From Neorhizobium alkalisoli (lineage in GTDB: Bacteria > Pseudomonadota > Alphaproteobacteria > Rhizobiales > Rhizobiaceae), in NCBI RefSeq assembly GCF_007829835.1, contig NZ_VIWP01000002.1, positions 186,001 to 250,000 on the forward strand: a DNA stretch of 64,000 nucleotides. The letters are read 5' to 3'. Positions 45,382-54,567 of this stretch are shown here, one piece after another. The position numbers and the translations under genes are program-made. How positions within the stretch are numbered: the stretch's first letter is position 1; every line of letters starts with the position of its first letter. Under the pieces are notes generated by a model. It saw nothing but the letters and a program-made list of their open reading frames with translations, made no database searches and was not told where the DNA came from.

Positions 45382-45431
45382 TTGAGATGAACGAGCTTAG
45401 GGCTTATTGTTCCGATGTTCAACCTTTGTTC
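45382..45431 (+). promoter_or_regulatory. dinB promoter with LexA (SOS) box
   Basis: TTGAGA (45382-45387) and TATTGT (45405-45410) are 17 bases apart. A perfect alphaproteobacterial LexA operator, GTTC-N7-GTTC (45417-45431), covers the predicted transcription start. LexA bound there would block initiation, so dinB should be SOS-induced. Confidence 0.82.
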
Positions 45432-45436
45432 CTGAG

Positions 45437-46726
45437 ATGACAGCTGTATCTGACAAGACATCCGGTTTCTGCCGCGACTGCCTGACGGAGCAGAAGGCAG
45501 GTTCGCGCCGTTGCCGCGCCTGCGGCAGCCCGCGCCTACTCTATCACGATGAGCTTTATGACCTGACGTTGGCGCATATCGACTGCGACGCGTTTTATGC
45601 GACCATCGAGAAACGCGACAATCCGGAACTGGCCGACAAGCCTGTGATTATCGGTGGCGGCAAACGCGGGGTCGTCTCGACTGCCTGTTATATCGCCCGC
45701 ATCAGCGGTGTGCGCTCCGCCATGCCCATGTTCAAGGCGCTGGAACTCTGCCCCGACGCGATTGTCATTCCGCCGAATATGGAAAAATATGTCAGTGTCG
45801 GGCGGCAGATGCGTCAGATGATGATGGAGCTGACGCCACTGGTGCAGCCGCTGTCGATCGACGAAGCCTTTCTCGAACTCGCCGGCACAGAGAAGCTGCA
45901 CAACGACCCGCCGGCACGCATTCTGGCAAAATTCGCCAACCGGGTGCAGAAGGAACTCGGCATCAGCATCTCGGTCGGGCTTTCCTATTGCAAATTCCTG
46001 GCCAAGGTGGCGTCCGACCTGCAGAAGCCCCGCGGTTTTTCGGTGATTGGACAGGCGGAAGCGCTGTCCTTTCTGGCACAGCGGCCGGTGACGACCATCT
46101 GGGGCGTCGGCAAGGCGTTCAACGCGACGCTGGAGGCGGATGGCATCCGCATGATCAGCCAGTTGCAGACCATGGAAGAGAGCGACCTGATGCGGCGCTA
46201 TGGCACGATGGGCCAGCGCCTCTATCGCCTCGCCCGCGGCATTGACGATCGCGAGGTGCATCTCAACGACCCGGCAAAAAGCGTTTCCGCCGAGACCACG
46301 TTTTTCGACGATATTTCCCGTTATGACGATCTCGTGCCGATCCTGCGCAGGCTTTCGGAAAAAGTGTCGGCCCGACTGAAGAAACAGGGCGTTGCTGGCC
46401 ATACGGTCGTGTTGAAAATGAAGACCGCCGACTTCAAGAGCCGCACCCGCAACAAGAAGCTGGAAGACCCGACGCAGCTTGCCGACCGGATTTTTCGCAC
46501 CGGCCTGTCGCTGATGGAGCGCGAGACGGATGGCGCGAAATTCCGCCTGCTCGGCATCGGCGTCACCGATCTCTGTGACCCACAACGTGCCGATCCGCCG
46601 GATCTGGTCGACCACCAGGCCGGACGCCGGGCGGCGGCGGAAGCGGCGATGGACAAGCTGCGCGACAAGTTCGGTAAGGCGGCGGTCGAGACCGGTTATA
46701 CGTTCGGCAACAAGCGGCGCGACTGA
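45437..46726 (+). CDS. dinB: DNA polymerase IV with N-terminal zinc ribbon
   Basis: This error-prone Y-family polymerase (429 residues) copies damaged templates. The catalytic acids lie in [15 protein letters not shown] and [11 protein letters not shown]. Helix-hairpin-helix elements ([19 protein letters not shown]) and a little-finger domain follow. Unlike E. coli DinB, it starts with about 40 extra residues forming a four-cysteine zinc ribbon (Cys12, Cys15, Cys26, Cys29). I chose the ATG at 45437; the TTG at 45407 would lie before the transcription start. No strong Shine-Dalgarno is visible. Regulation by LexA is supported by a perfect operator just upstream. Confidence 0.95.
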
Positions 46727-46867: not shown

Positions 46868-48256
46868 ATGTTGCGTCGCCTGGTTGTTGGTTTGGGTCTT
46901 CTGTCGGCGACGATGCTGTCGCAGACGGTTTTTGCGGCAGACGGCCGCACTCTGCAGATCATTGTCTCCAAGGACAAACAGCAGATGGTCGTTTACGACG
47001 GTGAAGCCGTTGTCGCGACCACCAGGATTTCCAGCGGCAAGGCCGGCCATACGACGCCGAGCGGCATCTTCTCCATTCTGGAGAAGGAAAAATATCACGA
47101 ATCGAACATCTATTCGAACGCGCCCATGCCCTGGATGCAGCGGATCACCTGGTCCGGTATCGCGCTGCATGAAGGCGTCGTGCCGAATCACCCCGCCTCG
47201 CATGGCTGCGTGCGCATGCCGGGCGCTTTTGCGCGCTCGCTCTATGATATGACCGCCAATGGTGCGCATGTGATCATCACCGATGCGCCGGTGACGCCGC
47301 AGCTGATCGACGATGTCGTTCTGTTCAAGCCGCGCAAGAGCGCGCCGACCGGCCCGCTTCTTCCCGATGTCGAACTGCGCACCTCCTCGATCAAGGCCGA
47401 TCCGAAGCCGGTGCAGGTAGCTATGAATGTCGCGCCCGAAAACCCGCTTGGCAGCCCCATCGGCAAGACCAGCAGCGATGCTCCGGCAGCCCAGCCAGGG
47501 ACGCCGGCTGCGACAAAGGCCGATGGTGGAAAGATCCTGCGCATCCTGATCACCCGCCGCGGCGATCGCGAGACGCTGATGGACGCCCAGGTTCTGCTGG
47601 AAAGCATGGGTTTCGAAACCGGCGGTTCCGACGGTTATCTCGGCCCCCTCACCCGCTCCGCCATAACCGGCTTCAAGCGCTGGAAGAACCTTTCCCAGAA
47701 GGGGCCGCTAATCAGCGGCGAATTCCTCGACGCGCTTTATGCAGCCGCAGACAAGCCGAAGCCGCCGGCCGGCCAGATCATGGTGCGCCAGAATTTCGAG
47801 CCGATGTTCGAAGCGCCGGTCGGGATCAAGGCGCCGGAAGTGGCGCTTGGCACACATCTCTTCACCGTCACCGATGTCAACCGCCAGGAAGAGACGGCCG
47901 AATGGCATGCGGTGACGCTGCCGAACCAGCTTTCCGACGCGACGATGAAACGCCTCGGCATCACGCTGCCGAGCGATTCGTCGCTATCGGGTGCCGCCCG
48001 CGCCGCGCTCGATCGGATCGAGATCCCGGACGACATCCGCGAAAAGATCGAGACCGCGATGGCCGATGGCACGTCGATCACCATCAACGATCAGGGCCTT
48101 GGCCCGGATACCGGCAAGGGCACGGATTTCATCACCATCACCCAGCCGGAACAGCAGGTCGCCGAAGCCGATACGAGCTATGACGAGCCGGTGGAACAGC
48201 CGCGCCCGGCCAAGCGCAGCAGCAACAAGCAGTACCGGTCGATCGGGCTTTATTGA
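46868..48256 (+). CDS. L,D-transpeptidase (YkuD) with peptidoglycan-binding-like domain
   Basis: This exported enzyme (462 residues) should form 3-3 cross-links in murein or attach proteins to it. The signal peptide covers about residues 1-24. The YkuD domain shows LQIIVSKDKQQMVVYDGE, TPSGIFSI and the catalytic SHGCVRM with the upstream His in ALHEGV. After a Pro/Ala-rich linker comes a peptidoglycan_binding_1-like segment (about 219-285), MDAQVLLESMGFETGGSDGY. The C-terminal half is low complexity. It is not in an operon; a TATAAG-like -10 lies just upstream. Confidence 0.9.
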   Translation: MLRRLVVGLGLLSATMLSQTVFAADGRTLQIIVSKDKQQMVVYDGEAVVATTRISSGKAGHTTPSGIFSILEKEKYHESNIYSNAPMPWMQRITWSGIALHEGVVPNHPASHGCVRMPGAFARSLYDMTANGAHVIITDAPVTPQLIDDVVLFKPRKSAPTGPLLPDVELRTSSIKADPKPVQVAMNVAPENPLGSPIGKTSSDAPAAQPGTPAATKADGGKILRILITRRGDRETLMDAQVLLESMGFETGGSDGYLGPLTRSAITGFKRWKNLSQKGPLISGEFLDALYAAADKPKPPAGQIMVRQNFEPMFEAPVGIKAPEVALGTHLFTVTDVNRQEETAEWHAVTLPNQLSDATMKRLGITLPSDSSLSGAARAALDRIEIPDDIREKIETAMADGTSITINDQGLGPDTGKGTDFITITQPEQQVAEADTSYDEPVEQPRPAKRSSNKQYRSIGLY

Positions 48257-48498: not shown

Positions 48499-51400
48499 TC
48501 AGCTCAGAAGCTCGACATCCAGCACCCCGGGTGCCGCCTTCAGCGCCGCAGCAATTTCCGGTGAAAGCCGGTATTTTTCCGTCAGTTCCACCTCGATCTC
48601 GCGCTTGCCGTCATCCTTGATAACGATGAAGGAAACGAGGCCATCGCCGCGGGCGTTCAAGTGGCGGGCGACGGTGCGCATCGGGCCGGAATCCCGCACA
48701 TAGACGCGCAGGGCCTTCTGCATCTGAACCGACTTTTCTTCGAGCGACTGAGCCGTCTGGATGCGCAGGCCGATGCCTTCCGGCCGCTCTTCGGCCTGGA
48801 CGGTGATGACCAGCGATTTGCCGGGCTCGAGCAGATCGCGATATTGCGCGAGACCTTCCGAAAACAGCACCGCCTCGAACTGACCGGAGGAATCGGAGAA
48901 GGCGACGATGCCCATCTTGTTGCCGGTGCGGGTCTTGCGCTCCTGACGGGAGGTCACCGTGCCCGCAAGACGGCCGGCGGTCGCGCCCTTGCGGACAGCG
49001 CCGGAGAAATCGGCAAAAGTCTGGACGCGCAGTTTGGCGAGAAGCGGCGCATAGGTGTCGAGCGGATGCGCCGAGAGATAGAAGCCGAGAACCTGATATT
49101 CGCGCATCAGCTTTTCGGAGGGCATCCAGGGATTGAAGGTCGGGAAGACCAGTGCTTCGGGGCCGGACGCCGAGCCGGAGCCGAACATGTCATGCTGGCC
49201 GCTGACCTTTTCGCCCTGGGCGCGCTGGGCATAACCGATGATGCGGTCGAGACCGGCGCTCATTTCGGCGCGGTCGCGGCCGAAGCAGTCGAAGGCGCCG
49301 GCGGAGATCAGGCTTTCCATGACACGCCGGTTGATCTGCTTCGGATCGATCCTGAGGCAGAAATCCTCGATGCCGGAAAATTCCTTGTCGCCGCGCACTT
49401 CGACAATGTGTTCGACAGCCGATTCGCCGACGCCCTTGATCGCCGCGAGCGCGTAGAAAATGCAGTTGTCGCCCGTCTCGAAACGGCGGAACGAGGTCTG
49501 TACCGAGGGCGGGATGACCTTGATGCCGAGCCGGACCGCATCTTCGCGGAAATCGACCAGCTTTTCCGTATTGGCCATATCGTAGGTCATAGACGCGGCG
49601 AGAAACTCGACCGGGTAATGCGCCTTCATGAAGGCTGTCTGATAGGAGACGATGGCGTAGGCGGCGGCGTGCGACTTGTTGAAGCCGTAGTTGGCGAATT
49701 TTGCCAGAAGGTCAAAAATCAGGTCGGATTGCGGCTTGGAGACGCCGTTCTTGACGGCACCCTCGACGAAGCGGGTGCGCTGCTTGTCCATCTCCTCCTT
49801 GATCTTCTTACCCATGGCGCGGCGCAGAAGATCGGCCTCGCCGAGCGAATACCCAGACAGGACCTGGGCGATCTGCATGACCTGCTCCTGGTAGACGATA
49901 ACGCCCTGGGTTTCCTTCAGCAGGTAATCGATCATCGGATGGATCGATTCGATCTCTTCCTCGCCATGCTTGCGGGCATTGTAGACAGGGATGTTTTCCA
50001 TCGGGCCCGGACGGTAGAGGGCGACGAGCGCGATGATATCCTCGATACAGTCGGGCTTCATGCCGATCAGTGCCTTGCGCATGCCGGCACTTTCCACCTG
50101 GAACACGCCGACCGTCTCGCCGCGCGACAGCATGTCATAGGTCTTCTTGTCGTCCAGCGGGATCTTTGCCAGATCGATCTCGATATCGCGCTTGCGGCAA
50201 TAATCGACGGCGGTCTTCAGCACCGTCAGCGTCTTCAGGCCGAGGAAGTCGAATTTGACGAGGCCTGCCTGTTCCACCCATTTCATGTTGAACTGGGTGA
50301 CCGGCATGTCCGAGCGCGGGTCTCGATACATCGGCACCAGTTTCGACAGCGGCCGGTCGCCGATGACGATGCCGGCGGCGTGGGTCGAGGCGTGGCGGTA
50401 AAGGCCCTCGATCTTCTGGGCAATATCGAGAAGGCGGCCGACGACTGGTTCCTTCTCGACCTCTTCCTGGAACTTTGGTTCTTCCTCGATCGCCTTCGAT
50501 AGAGGTGTCGGATTGGCCGGGTTGTTCGGCACCAGCTTGCAGATACGGTCGACCTGGCCATAGGGCATTTCGAGCACGCGGCCGACGTCGCGCAGGGCCG
50601 CGCGGGCCTGCAGCGAACCGAAGGTGATGATCTGCGCCACCTGCTCGCGACCGTATTTGCGCTGCACGTAACGGATCACCTCTTCGCGGCGATCCTGGCA
50701 GAAGTCGATGTCGAAGTCGGGCATCGACACGCGGTCTGGATTGAGAAAGCGTTCGAACAGGAGCGAGAAACGCAGTGGATCGACGTCGGTAATGGTGAGC
50801 GCATAGGCGACCAGCGAGCCTGCACCCGAACCACGGCCGGGGCCGACCGGAATGTTCTGGATCTTTGCCCATTTGATGAAGTCGGCAACGATCAGGAAGT
50901 AGCCGGGAAACTTCATCTTCTCGATGACGGAAAGCTCGAAATCGAGCCGCTCGCGATAATCCTTTTCGGTAAAGCCGGCGGAAAGGCCAAGCTCGGCCAT
51001 GCGGCTTTCAAGGCCTTCGATCGACTGGCGGCGCAGCTCGTCCGCCTCGGCGCGTTCGGCCTCTTCCGGATCGGCGGTCGCGCCGGTGAAGCGCGGCAGG
51101 ATCGGATTGCGGGTTTTCAGGATGAACGAGCAGCGTTTGGCGATCTCGACAGTGTTTTCCAGCGCTTCGGGAAGATCGGCAAACAGCTTTGCCATTTCGG
51201 CGCGGCTTTTCAGATAATGATCCGGCGTCAGGCGGAAACGGTTGTCATCCGAGACGATGGCATTGTGCGCCACAGCCATCAGGGCGTCATGCGCGTCGTA
51301 ATCGCCCTTGGTCGGGAAAAACGCCTCATTGGTCGCGACCAGCGGCACGTCGTTCGTGTAGGCGAGATCGATCATCTTGCGCTCATGGCGGCGATCCCAG

Positions 51401-51999
51401 GAACCGTGGCGCTGCAGTTCGAGATAAAGGCGATCGCCGAAAAGTTCCTTGAGCGACAGGAGACGGGATTGTGCGAGCGCCGTATTGCCGTCTCTCATCG
51501 GAATATCGACGGGACCGCCGGCTGCACCGGTCAGCGCGATCAGGCCTCCGGTACCCGCCTCCTCCAGCCAGGAGCGACGGATGTGGACGGCGCTATGCCC
51601 CTCGCCGCCGAGATAGGCGCGGCTGACGATATCGACGAGGCGTTCATAGCCGGCCGCATCCGCCGCCAGCACAACGATTGCCGGCAGCTTGGCGAGCTGC
51701 TGGTGGCTGCTGCGGCGTTCGTCGCTCTGGTCTTCCATGTCGATCGACAGCTGGCAGCCGATGATCGGCTGCAATCCGTCACCGATCGCCTTCTGGGCGA
51801 ATTCGAGCGCGATGAAGAGATTGTTCGTATCGGTGACGGCAAGCGCGGGCTGGTCGTCACTCAGGGCCTTGGCCAGGATCTTCTTGAGCGGCAAGGCGCC
51901 CTCAAGAAGCGAATAGGCGGAATGGACACGCAGGTGCACGAATTGCGGCGTCGTGCCAGTTGCCCCTGCCATAGATTTACCGCCCGCAGCGTCTGCCAT
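48499..51999 (-). CDS. dnaE: DNA polymerase III alpha subunit
   Basis: This replicative polymerase is 1166 residues. The N-terminal PHP domain begins FVHLRVHSAYSLLEGALPLKK. The palm contains the catalytic acidic cluster PDFDIDFCQDRREEVIRYV, and GVIVYQEQVMQIAQ and GEADLLRRAMGKK are diagnostic. The OB-fold is near TVTSRQERKTRTGNKMG at the C-terminal side. It is the housekeeping DnaE1, not the SOS-type DnaE2: length and the neighbouring genes (no imuAB) fit. The start near 51999 gives MADAAGGKSMAGATG; a later ATG is possible. Confidence 0.95.
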   Translation of the reverse strand: MADAAGGKSMAGATGTTPQFVHLRVHSAYSLLEGALPLKKILAKALSDDQPALAVTDTNNLFIALEFAQKAIGDGLQPIIGCQLSIDMEDQSDERRSSHQQLAKLPAIVVLAADAAGYERLVDIVSRAYLGGEGHSAVHIRRSWLEEAGTGGLIALTGAAGGPVDIPMRDGNTALAQSRLLSLKELFGDRLYLELQRHGSWDRRHERKMIDLAYTNDVPLVATNEAFFPTKGDYDAHDALMAVAHNAIVSDDNRFRLTPDHYLKSRAEMAKLFADLPEALENTVEIAKRCSFILKTRNPILPRFTGATADPEEAERAEADELRRQSIEGLESRMAELGLSAGFTEKDYRERLDFELSVIEKMKFPGYFLIVADFIKWAKIQNIPVGPGRGSGAGSLVAYALTITDVDPLRFSLLFERFLNPDRVSMPDFDIDFCQDRREEVIRYVQRKYGREQVAQIITFGSLQARAALRDVGRVLEMPYGQVDRICKLVPNNPANPTPLSKAIEEEPKFQEEVEKEPVVGRLLDIAQKIEGLYRHASTHAAGIVIGDRPLSKLVPMYRDPRSDMPVTQFNMKWVEQAGLVKFDFLGLKTLTVLKTAVDYCRKRDIEIDLAKIPLDDKKTYDMLSRGETVGVFQVESAGMRKALIGMKPDCIEDIIALVALYRPGPMENIPVYNARKHGEEEIESIHPMIDYLLKETQGVIVYQEQVMQIAQVLSGYSLGEADLLRRAMGKKIKEEMDKQRTRFVEGAVKNGVSKPQSDLIFDLLAKFANYGFNKSHAAAYAIVSYQTAFMKAHYPVEFLAASMTYDMANTEKLVDFREDAVRLGIKVIPPSVQTSFRRFETGDNCIFYALAAIKGVGESAVEHIVEVRGDKEFSGIEDFCLRIDPKQINRRVMESLISAGAFDCFGRDRAEMSAGLDRIIGYAQRAQGEKVSGQHDMFGSGSASGPEALVFPTFNPWMPSEKLMREYQVLGFYLSAHPLDTYAPLLAKLRVQTFADFSGAVRKGATAGRLAGTVTSRQERKTRTGNKMGIVAFSDSSGQFEAVLFSEGLAQYRDLLEPGKSLVITVQAEERPEGIGLRIQTAQSLEEKSVQMQKALRVYVRDSGPMRTVARHLNARGDGLVSFIVIKDDGKREIEVELTEKYRLSPEIAAALKAAPGVLDVELLS

Positions 52000-52081
52000 A
52001 TCCGCACATTACCCATTTCATGAATCGGGGCATTTTCGGATGTGCGACAAGAGGAGTCCAGTTCGGATTTCCTCTCTCAAC

Positions 52082-52120
52082 GTCTTTCAGGCTTTGAGCC
52101 GTGCCAAAAGCCTGAAAGAC
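52082..52120. repeat. perfect 14-bp hairpin between dnaE and the small membrane gene
   Basis: GTCTTTCAGGCTTT (52082-52095) pairs perfectly with AAAGCCTGAAAGAC (52107-52120). On the plus strand it is followed by a T run; on the minus strand it is not. It lies eight bases downstream of the small gene stop and could act as a 3' hairpin or attenuator. Confidence 0.7.
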
Positions 52121-52128
52121 AAGGGTTT

Positions 52129-52215
52129 TTACATGACCAGCATGATCATCGAAAGGCTGGCAACAAAGGTCGCGATGGAAGCGAATGCGGCAATATCACG
52201 AAGAAGGTCAGTCAT
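52129..52215 (-). CDS. 28-residue membrane peptide behind a LexA-like operator (SidA-like candidate)
   Basis: A tiny frame encodes MTDLLRDIAAFASIATFVAS plus eight more residues (LSMIMLVM), with TAA as stop. After three charged residues the rest is one predicted membrane helix. GGGAG lies six bases before the ATG at 52215. A promoter (TTGACT, 17 bases, CAAATT) contains a LexA-like box. This size, topology and regulation match Caulobacter SidA, a 29-residue SOS-induced division inhibitor acting on FtsW/FtsN. Homology is not shown; the match is by design. Confidence 0.7.
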   Translation of the reverse strand: MTDLLRDIAAFASIATFVASLSMIMLVM

Positions 52216-52244
52216 CGTCGTCTCCCGTGTTCTCTTGTGTTTTT

Positions 52245-52273
52245 AATTTGTTCTCTTTTTGTACGAGAGTCAA
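52245..52273 (-). promoter_or_regulatory. promoter with LexA-like box for the 28-residue peptide gene
   Basis: On the minus strand, TTGACT (52273-52268) and CAAATT (52250-52245) are 17 bases apart. In the spacer, GTACAAAAAGAGAAC (52264-52250) differs by one base from the strong alphaproteobacterial LexA box GAACAAAAAGAGAAC. Predicted transcription starts near 52238, leaving about 23 bases before the ATG. A second half-box lies upstream (AAGAGAAC, 52274-52282). Confidence 0.68.
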
Positions 52274-53059
52274 CAAGAGAACGAAACAAGAATACAGGAA
52301 GCCGCAGGATGGTTAACCGCGTGCCTTTTGCGGCACGGATGTCTCCCTTGGCGATCGTAAGATTTTCAGTTTCGGCCGGGACACGTCGGGTGCCTCGAAT
52401 TGATTTTTTATAGGTGACACGCGACGTGCCCCGTTCGGTGGTTTTTCCGCGCAACTCCGGTCCGTCTGCGGCGATCCAAGCCTCTTTCGAGACCAGCTAT
52501 CGCATGTGTGCGACACACGCACGTCCCTCCTTGTTCAGGCGAGAGGCAGACCATTTTCTGCGCAGCCCCCGGTTCCGCGCCTGCATCACAGCGCTCGACC
52601 GGATCACCGGTCCCACCTCGCCGGCGATGCGTGCCGGTGTAGCCGAAGCGGGACGAGGAGGATTTTAGGGGGGGCGGGAATGAGGTGAAGGTAAAATCGT
52701 GCAAGGTGTTGGTTTTGCTGGATGGGGTGTTCTGAACTTCCCCATATTTGCGCACCTCTGTGTGTGCGTCTGCCCCTCACCCTAGCCCTCTCCCCGCTTG
52801 CGGGGAGAGGGGACCTGCCCTGCGCTGGCTGGTGGGAAGGTCATCGTCGCGCTTTAAATGAGGATCGAGCGGGCGCGGCATACCCTTCTCCCCGCGAGCG
52901 GGGAGAAGGTGGCGGCAGCCGGATGAGGGGCCGTCGCATGAGAGATGCGTGGCAGCAGAATAAAGGACGACAAGCCATCCCCGCCACCTCAGTTGCAAAT
53001 GCCTCTCAATACCATAACAAACTGTTTTTATTGACTTATTTCGAACGACTCGCTATCTG
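52274..53059. other. non-coding stretch between the small peptide gene and the mntP riboswitch
   Basis: About 790 bases contain no supported gene. Frames such as 52408-52755 (minus) have no recognisable features. The part 52320-52440 has an AT-rich promoter-like stretch (TATAGG) of uncertain use. A RIME-like repeat occupies 52772-52931, and the segment up to 53059 is AT-rich leader sequence. Confidence 0.5.
52772..52931. repeat. RIME-like intergenic palindromic element (inverted copy)
   Basis: This is a 160-base copy of the element at 30914 and 58819, in inverted orientation: GCCCCTCACCCTAGCCCTC at the left and GGCAGCCGGATGAGGGGCC at the right. The hairpins are CTCTCCCCGC with GCGGGGAGAG, and CTTCTCCCCGC with GCGGGGAGAAG. 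Confidence 0.85.
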
Positions 53060-53200
53060 GACCGCATCGGGGAGTAGCAACCGCCTGTTCGGCGGGACTG
53101 CGTCAACATGATCGCGATCTCTTTCGCGTGGCGCCGTCAGCCTGAAAAGGCCATGCGAGACCGTTGGTGGCAGCGTCCTTGGGGCAAGGGCGTGGTCATG
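53060..53200 (+). promoter_or_regulatory. yybP-ykoY manganese riboswitch
   Basis: The three conserved blocks occur in order: GGGGAGTAGC (53069-53078), GTCAACATG (53102-53110) and CTTGGGGCAAGG (53178-53189). They define the Mn2+-sensing yybP-ykoY aptamer. It lies directly upstream of mntP and its presence fixes the mntP start at 53234. In this arrangement Mn2+ binding turns on mntP expression, probably through translation because no terminator is seen before the gene. Confidence 0.9.
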
Positions 53201-53233
53201 CCATCCAACCAGAGCCCGAACACGAGTTATGCC

Positions 53234-53800
53234 ATGTCTCCGTTCACGATTGCCGCGCTTGCCGTCGGCATGTCCATCGATGCGTTTGTCGCCTCCGTCA
53301 GCCGCGGTGCTGCCTTCAAACGCCCTCCCCTGAAAGAAGCGCTGCGCACCGGCATCGTCTTCGGCGTCGTCGAGATGATCACGCCGCTGATCGGCTGGCT
53401 CGCCGGCATCGTCGCCAGCCAGTATGTCCAGACCGTCGATCACTGGATCGCCTTCATCCTGCTCGCCATCGTCGGCGGCCGCATGGCGATGGAAGGTTTT
53501 TCGCGTAGCGAGACGGAAGAGGTTTCGGCCGATAGCCGCTCGCTGGTCATTCTGATGGCGACCGCGATCGGCACCAGCATCGATGCCATGGCGGTTGGCG
53601 TTTCGCTTGCCTTCCTGCAGGTGAATATCGTCATCGTGGCGATCGCCATCGGCTTTGCCACCTTCGCCATGTCGACCGGCGGCATGCTTCTGTCGCGCCT
53701 GATCGGCCCGCGTTTCGGCAAATGGGCCGAAGTGGTCGGCGGCGTCGGGTTGTTCTGCCTGGGCACCTCGATCCTGGTGGATCATCTGACGGCCGGATAA
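53234..53800 (+). CDS. mntP: manganese efflux pump MntP
   Basis: MntP exports excess Mn2+ across the inner membrane (188 residues, six helices). Two repeat halves are visible: [20 protein letters not shown] in the first and [19 protein letters not shown] in the second, each with the conserved Asp that binds the ion. I chose the ATG at 53234 ([12 protein letters not shown]); the longer frame from 53108 lies in the riboswitch. A terminator follows the gene. Confidence 0.95.
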
Positions 53801-53883: not shown

Positions 53884-54567
53884 TTAGAACTCCACCACCT
53901 TGCCGCCCTCGATCGTCACGCGACGGTCCATGCGGGCGGCGAGTTCGTGGTTGTGGGTGGCGATCAGCGCAGCCAGGCCCGACTGGCGCACCAGCGCTTC
54001 CAGCGCATCAAAAACGTAGGATGCGGTTTTCGGGTCGAGATTGCCGGTCGGTTCGTCGGCCAGCAGCACGCGCGGTGCATTGGCGACGGCGCGGGCGATG
54101 GCGACGCGTTGTTGCTCACCGCCGGAAAGCTCTGCCGGACGATGTTCGCCACGATGGCCGATCCGCATGTAATCGAGAAGCTGGCTTGCCCGCTCGCGGG
54201 CATCGGCCTTGGACAGGCCACCGATCAGCTGCGGCATCATGATGTTCTCTACCGCCGAGAATTCCGGCAGGAGATGATGGAACTGATAGACGAAGCCGAC
54301 TTCGGAACGGCGGATCGACGTGCGCTCCTCGTCCGACAGGCCATTGCAGGAACGGCCGCCGATCGAGACGTCACCGCCATCGGGATGTTCCAGCAGGCCG
54401 GCGAGATGAAGAAGGGTCGATTTGCCGGTGCCCGAAGGGGCGACGAGCGCGACGATCTCGCCGCTCGACAGCGAAAAATCGGCGCCTTTCAGGATCGAGA
54501 GCGTCGTCTCGCCCTGGCCATAATGCCTCTCGACGCCGGAAAGCTGCAGGACGGGTTTGCGTGCCAT
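53884..54567 (-). CDS. lolD: lipoprotein-releasing system ATP-binding protein
   Basis: LolD is the ATPase that powers extraction of lipoproteins from the inner membrane and hand-over to LolA (227 residues). Walker A is [10 protein letters not shown], the signature is [14 protein letters not shown] and Walker B is [12 protein letters not shown]. The His switch is in [11 protein letters not shown]. It follows the membrane subunit lolC by 12 bases on the same strand, as in most alphaproteobacteria. It sits at the 3' end of the proS-lolC-lolD unit. Confidence 0.95.

Follow-up and report, generated by a model that had tools for sequence, protein, structure and literature searches.

A SidA-like, predicted membrane peptide upstream of dnaE in Neorhizobium alkalisoli, with a LexA-type promoter box in its relatives and copies in phages

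We found that a 28-codon frame upstream of dnaE, in the 64,000-nucleotide stretch of Neorhizobium alkalisoli DNA analyzed here (the window), likely encodes the orthologue of SidA in rhizobia, an inner-membrane peptide with a single helix that LexA would repress and that would inhibit the divisome during the SOS response. In Caulobacter, SidA is described as a 29-residue inner-membrane SOS division inhibitor that interacts with FtsW (PMC4211646), and the filamentation of cells without lexA is attributed to it (PMC12700426, PMC13384398). A sequence-only reading of the window had already proposed the frame as an SOS-controlled SidA counterpart. This proposal is supported, because the rhizobial gene has the same place before dnaE, an ungapped profile match to SidA, and the same promoter box in relatives. 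The features of the locus are collected in Table 1.

Table 1. Features of the peptide locus in the window
Feature	Position	Strand	Evidence
SidA-like membrane peptide frame, 28 codons, ATG to TAA, MTDLLRDIAAFASIATFVASLSMIMLVM	52129..52215	minus	ORF translation and conservation
GGGAG, Shine-Dalgarno-like, six bases 5' of ATG	52222..52226	minus	letters checked; kept in genus alignment
Overlapping second LexA-like spacing GAACAAATTAAAAAC; central GAAC shared, AAAC 11 bases on	52239..52253	minus	
Weak -10-like CAAATT, 17 bases after the -35	52245..52250	minus	inspection only
LexA-like box GTACAAAAAGAGAAC, one mismatch to GAACN7GAAC	52250..52264	minus	letters checked
-35 hexamer TTGACT	52268..52273	minus	inspection; TTGAC kept in genus alignment and most printed family loci
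Extra GTTC 5' of the -35, kept in most genus loci	52279..52282	minus	
dnaE, DNA polymerase III alpha, downstream neighbor	48499..51999	minus	NCBIfam NF004226 over cut-off
mntP-like gene, upstream	53108-53800	plus	
lolD, frequent upstream neighbor	53884..54567	minus	best NCBIfam match LolD, below its cut-off

The letters at these positions agree with the earlier description of a 28-codon frame preceded by GGGAG, and of a predicted membrane helix after three charged residues: D3, R6, and D7 lie N-terminal to a hydrophobic stretch with a mean Kyte-Doolittle value of 2.14 (best 19 residues). Among the 115 ATG-starting frames of 24 to 34 amino acids in the window, 3 reach a hydropathy of at least 1.6. 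With 28 residues and one predicted helix, the peptide is of SidA-like size. A DNA search with 401 bases around the frame found matches in 48 of 57 genus genomes (window genome counted), and all 48 have an unbroken frame of 28 codons. A protein search detected the peptide in each of the remaining nine (worst E value, 4.5e-4), so that it is retained in 57 of 57 genus genomes; the stop codons or frameshifts in close relatives that the sequence-only reading had named as counter-evidence were absent. Across 42 distinct genus frames, mean pN/pS was 0.20 (mean pS, 0.48; mean pN, 0.10). The genus locus L040 was left out for an ambiguous base. The peptide frame is under purifying selection. For 29 of 47 relatives, the DNA match stops no more than 3 bases from the stop codon; it continues to dnaE in 14 and stops earlier in 4. 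Short frames are common, as the 115 in the window illustrate, and we considered on that ground that this one arose by chance; its retention throughout the genus and the pN/pS value led us to reject that reading as vanishingly improbable.

The frame adjoins dnaE in each of the 48 genus loci; the same is true of all 30 long-flank loci from the family search (three of them from the window's genus). We also read 72 loci outside the genus from named genome records (Shinella, Sinorhizobium, Ensifer, Pararhizobium, Ciceribacter, Agrobacterium, Martelella, Ahrensia, Rhizobium species, and others). All 72 have dnaE downstream on the same strand, about 100 to 401 bases from the peptide, and 59 have lolD inside the fetched flank. 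Forty further family-search loci had a flank of about 300 bases, which contained dnaE in 21, lolD only in 4, and neither in 15. The frame had earlier been placed between dnaE and unrelated sequence; this is true locally, but an mntP-like gene and then lolD follow further upstream. Palindromic repeats of the CTCCCCGC..GCGGGGAG type occupy window positions 52777-52930, between the peptide and the mntP-like gene. The window also contains a DNA polymerase IV gene (45407-46726) with a LexA-type box, GAACAAAGGTTGAAC, at its 5' end (45417-45431); roughly 3 kb separate this box from the 3' end of dnaE. Between this gene and dnaE lies a frame with an L,D-transpeptidase (YkuD) domain (46868-48256), which also has a peptidoglycan-binding match just under cut-off.

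The box in the window promoter is one base from the strong LexA box, as had been noticed from the letters, and lies directly 3' of the -35, where a bound repressor would block polymerase. The -35/-10 pair described with it fared less well: both hexamers are present by inspection, but the -10 is weak and a sigma-70 consensus scan of positions 51900-52450 found no promoter. This putative LexA site, with its one mismatch in the window, is perfect in the promoters of 71 of the 72 named-record loci; only L375, a metagenome bin that bears the title Arenimonas, deviates. A family search listed 78 matches, of which 70 were read (three from the window's genus) and 8 left out. Of these 70, 62 have a perfect GAACN7GAAC no more than 75 bases from the start. 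The eight exceptions are the three window-genus loci, two loci not linked to dnaE (L134 and L139), and three ordinary loci with at least one mismatch (L069, L120, and L148). Across the window's genome, A-rich boxes (GAACAWANNNNGAAC) number 13, against 1 for the reversed pattern. The downstream gene was named at three of the 13 loci: uvrA at one, read as far as the locus extends, DNA polymerase IV at another, and an ogt-type gene at the third.

Within the window's genus, the second half-site, GAAC, is in the expected position in all 48 loci (the pattern was anchored on GAAC, and the alignment agrees). The first half-site is imperfect in 41 of the 48, most often GTAC (20) or AAAC (15), and is a perfect GAAC in 7 only; LexA control may therefore be weaker here. 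Carried further, this would mean that the gene has escaped LexA control in the genus and is constitutive or under another regulator. The contrast with the other family loci, 57 of 65 of which have a perfect first half-site (5 not scored), favors such an escape, as does the extra GTTC ahead of the -35 in most genus loci. Against it stand the unbroken conservation of the second GAAC, a third half-site, AAAC, in 43 of 48 loci (46 scored), and a perfect box in 5 of 7 further genus loci printed (L292 and L293, from the nine extra loci, were left out of the box reading). We consider escape unlikely, with a small but appreciable chance of being right. In Sinorhizobium meliloti 4H41 (L391), GAAC occurs three times at 11-base spacing in the peptide promoter. 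The window promoter matches the frame of this array with one base changed on each side, and may be a weakened relic of a triple array of the L391 type.

The curated NCBIfam model for SidA, NF033228 (div_inhib_SidA), matched neither the window peptide nor the window genome. Among 13 family peptides, the best two gave E values of 0.038 and 0.026, with scores of 13.9 and 14.5 bits against a cut-off of 35. Two family peptides having matched weakly, we therefore used the model to find SidA genes. Over 385 class genomes, one passed the cut-off and 27 had any match at E ≤ 0.1; as a caution, E. coli, B. subtilis, and a Bacteroides also gave weak matches. The passing genome belongs to a family that would be the Caulobacteraceae; of 80 genomes surveyed there, 67 match at E ≤ 0.05 and 49 exceed the cut-off. 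NF033228 is thus a narrow model, passed by 49 of 80 genomes of the very family surveyed for SidA. Pfam, run on four relatives of the peptide, gave only a LacI match, for one of them (E value, 0.097).

We read 33 SidA loci, 30 from the surveyed family and three from the class scan. All 33 contain dnaE, and 16 have lolD inside the flank. The SidA peptide stands directly before dnaE in all 31 resolved loci, and in 24 of these 31 a perfect GAACN7GAAC lies within 110 bases of the peptide; L305 and L319, where the wrong frames had been picked, were left out of the box count. Because the dnaE position and the box counts agree, SidA and the rhizobial peptide share the same place and the same box.

The sequences themselves can also be aligned. 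Profiles of 81 rhizobial and 25 SidA peptides align without gaps from residue 1 (MTDLLRDIAAFASIATFVAS versus MIRLARESLALASVAGFVWM). Four rhizobial peptides of a length other than 28 were left out of this ungapped test, and L134 and L139, which have no box and lie in prophage-like regions, were left out of the peptide sets. The profile score is 25.3 at register 0 and at most 1.9 at every other register from -6 to +6. None of 20,000 column permutations scored as well as register 0, and 2 of 20,000 did when columns were permuted within segments. Comparison of the two profiles by hhalign gave a P value of 1.4e-6 and a probability of 90.4 (with 18 of 85 rhizobial and 11 of 25 SidA sequences), and none of 200 scrambled-column controls was as good. 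S13 is constant in both sets, F17 is conserved at 97% in the rhizobial and 100% in the SidA peptides, and R6 at 84% and 100%; residue 7 is mostly D in one set and E or D in the other. Judged by these profiles, the rhizobial peptide is homologous to SidA in sequence. The sequence-only reading had left this homology unestablished; the profile match now argues for it, but the curated model does not recognize the peptide.

Like SidA of Caulobacter, the peptide has 28 to 29 residues and one hydrophobic stretch, agrees without gaps at R6, D/E7, A10, S13, F17, and V18, is encoded directly before dnaE, and has the GAACN7GAAC box in relatives. Unlike SidA, the rhizobial peptide has no W19-M20 and carries an acidic D3 where SidA mostly has R3. 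The window peptide differs further in falling below the curated cut-off, and its genus in the degenerate first half-site.

To cover the order and the class, dnaE was located in 119 of 120 order genomes and 166 of 172 class genomes, and 69 dnaE-upstream regions from each, chosen largely among the higher scorers, were scanned for a LexA box together with a ribosome site and a hydrophobic frame of 24 to 45 residues. The box-plus-peptide unit precedes dnaE in 28 of 69 order regions (three of the 69 are from the window's own family, one of them positive) and in 9 of 69 class regions. Nearly every region with the box also had such a frame (28 of 29 in the order; 9 of 10 in the class). As controls, six other 4-base repeats gave 0 of 69 in order and class alike, and GAAC repeats at other spacings gave 0 to 2 regions. 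A first-round orientation control found GTTCN7GTTC in 5 of 98 dnaE-upstream regions versus 33 of 98 for GAACN7GAAC. Many order frames are alignable and share a (R/K/E)(D/E)xAA(F/L) start, and the peptides of some class loci (L413, L427, and L435, for example) look unlike these. A family profile search matched 186 of 199 genomes at E ≤ 0.5, counting weak matches of any genomic place and using a profile that includes members from some of the searched genomes; 8 of the 13 genomes without a match are 2.0 Mb or less.

Copies of the peptide also occur in phage DNA. In four genomes, a prophage-like region carries an additional copy that lacks a LexA box (L331:3438, L332:3278, L333:3184, and L334:3238), and the dnaE-linked copy was also read in three of these four (L335 to L337). 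The L331 copy adjoins a PDDEXK protein (exonuclease VIII by PHROGs) and RecT, the L332 copy adjoins two proteins assigned as exonucleases by PHROGs, and a CI-like S24 repressor lies in the same stretch as the L334 copy. Relatives of the peptide are encoded on 12 IMG/VR contigs (L453 to L464), which are not all independent: L453 is as long as the contig of L331, and two pairs have identical peptides. All 12 stretches have an exonuclease VIII-type tblastn match, several near 25% identity, and 8 have a RecT-type match. A LexA box was found in the 100 bases upstream of the peptide in 0 of the 12, and dnaE or lolD in the fetched stretch in 0 of the 12. A profile of seven phage peptides matched the rhizobial profile with a P value of 2.1e-10, and none of 200 scrambled controls did as well. 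When compared with only the SidA set, the phage profile was not significant (P value, 0.027; 15 of 200 scrambled controls as good), so the link from phage to SidA runs via the rhizobial profile. A search of INPHARED phage records with one phage peptide gave no match, and a scan of two phage peptides against PHROGs assigned them to no family. Further SidA-like frames lie away from dnaE at L338:2532 and L339:2328, among neighbor genes that look phage-like or unknown by eye. The phage copies are a possible phage division inhibitor. Kil of phage lambda is a small protein of the early recombination region, as the phage copies are; it acts on FtsZ, and the likeness to it is one of description.

Two other functions could be proposed for a small peptide in this place. 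Its translation could tune dnaE, which would make it a leader peptide or upstream open reading frame, the kind of role that Hadjeras et al. suggested in general for sORFs located in Sinorhizobium 5'-UTRs, with sORF25 at dnaE1 as a named case (PMC10117765). There, sORF25 is a translated frame in the 5'-UTR of dnaE1, listed as noteworthy among possible upstream frames; the main text of that paper contains no SidA, LexA, or SOS and proposes no SOS or division role for it. In the 600 bases read in L391, only two frames are preceded by a ribosome site, the 28-residue one at L391:1501-1584 and a GTG frame of 23 residues, and sORF25 is probably the same gene as the rhizobial SidA-like peptide. A leader would also fit the place before dnaE in the 72 named-record loci and the strong hairpin after the window stop codon (-25.4 kcal/mol; 52083-52121, ahead of dnaE; on the sense strand no T-run follows it). 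However, what is kept is the amino-acid sequence rather than a codon run, and none was found when a regulatory codon run was looked for in the window frame. The gap to dnaE varies, reaching roughly 550 bases in the order locus L262, the 12 phage contigs carry a copy with no dnaE nearby, and the peptide in the same place in Caulobacter, SidA, is a division inhibitor (PMC4211646). We regard a leader function as very unlikely.

An SOS-induced membrane peptide could also have another target and, for example, depolarize the membrane. TisB of E. coli is such a peptide, with 29 residues, LexA control, and a depolarizing action, and is a type I toxin with an antisense RNA; it is set beside the rhizobial peptide by description. 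Size, the single hydrophobic stretch, and the LexA box fit a TisB-like peptide equally well. Sequence and genomic place nevertheless favor SidA, and a gene present in 57 of 57 genus genomes belongs to the core genome and is not a scattered toxin. An Rfam scan of 51800-52600 likewise gave four matches, none of them near its gathering score, although an RNA of no described family could escape such a scan. This alternative we hold to be improbable. DidA of Caulobacter, compared likewise by description, is another small, single-helix, damage-induced division inhibitor, but it is longer (71 residues), controlled by DriD, and independent of the SOS response (PMC4211646).

Under the SidA orthologue reading, DNA damage would cause RecA to trigger LexA self-cleavage, and the peptide promoter would open. 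The peptide would then insert in the inner membrane and keep the late divisome inactive until repair is done, acting on FtsW or a partner as SidA does through FtsW in Caulobacter. The conserved residues R6, D/E7, S13, and F17 are natural candidates for the contact with the divisome. Among the open-access papers listed in our searches, none reported a rhizobial SidA, which is weak evidence of absence, and none named an effector of the post-damage division stop in rhizobia and their kin. The one Bradyrhizobium match to SidA was "Holm-Sidak."

We think it rather probable that SidA is an ancestral alphaproteobacterial damage-checkpoint peptide, fixed before dnaE, that temperate rhizobial phages have captured. 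In the phages, the gene would have dropped its LexA box, come to lie beside the exonuclease and RecT genes of the early region, and served to halt host division in lytic growth, comparable to Kil of lambda. Two surprises are the wide spread upstream of dnaE and this proposed phage capture, and the degenerate half-site in the window's genus is a puzzle. This counterpart of SidA in position, sequence, and control site suggests an emergency division brake that is common to many alphaproteobacteria and was acquired by some of their phages. If this is true, SidA would be a widespread checkpoint concealed by gene-size cut-offs. The family would provide a natural alignment for mapping the contact between SidA and the divisome, with phage-borne versions available for comparison, and the stop in division after DNA damage in rhizobia would become a testable question.
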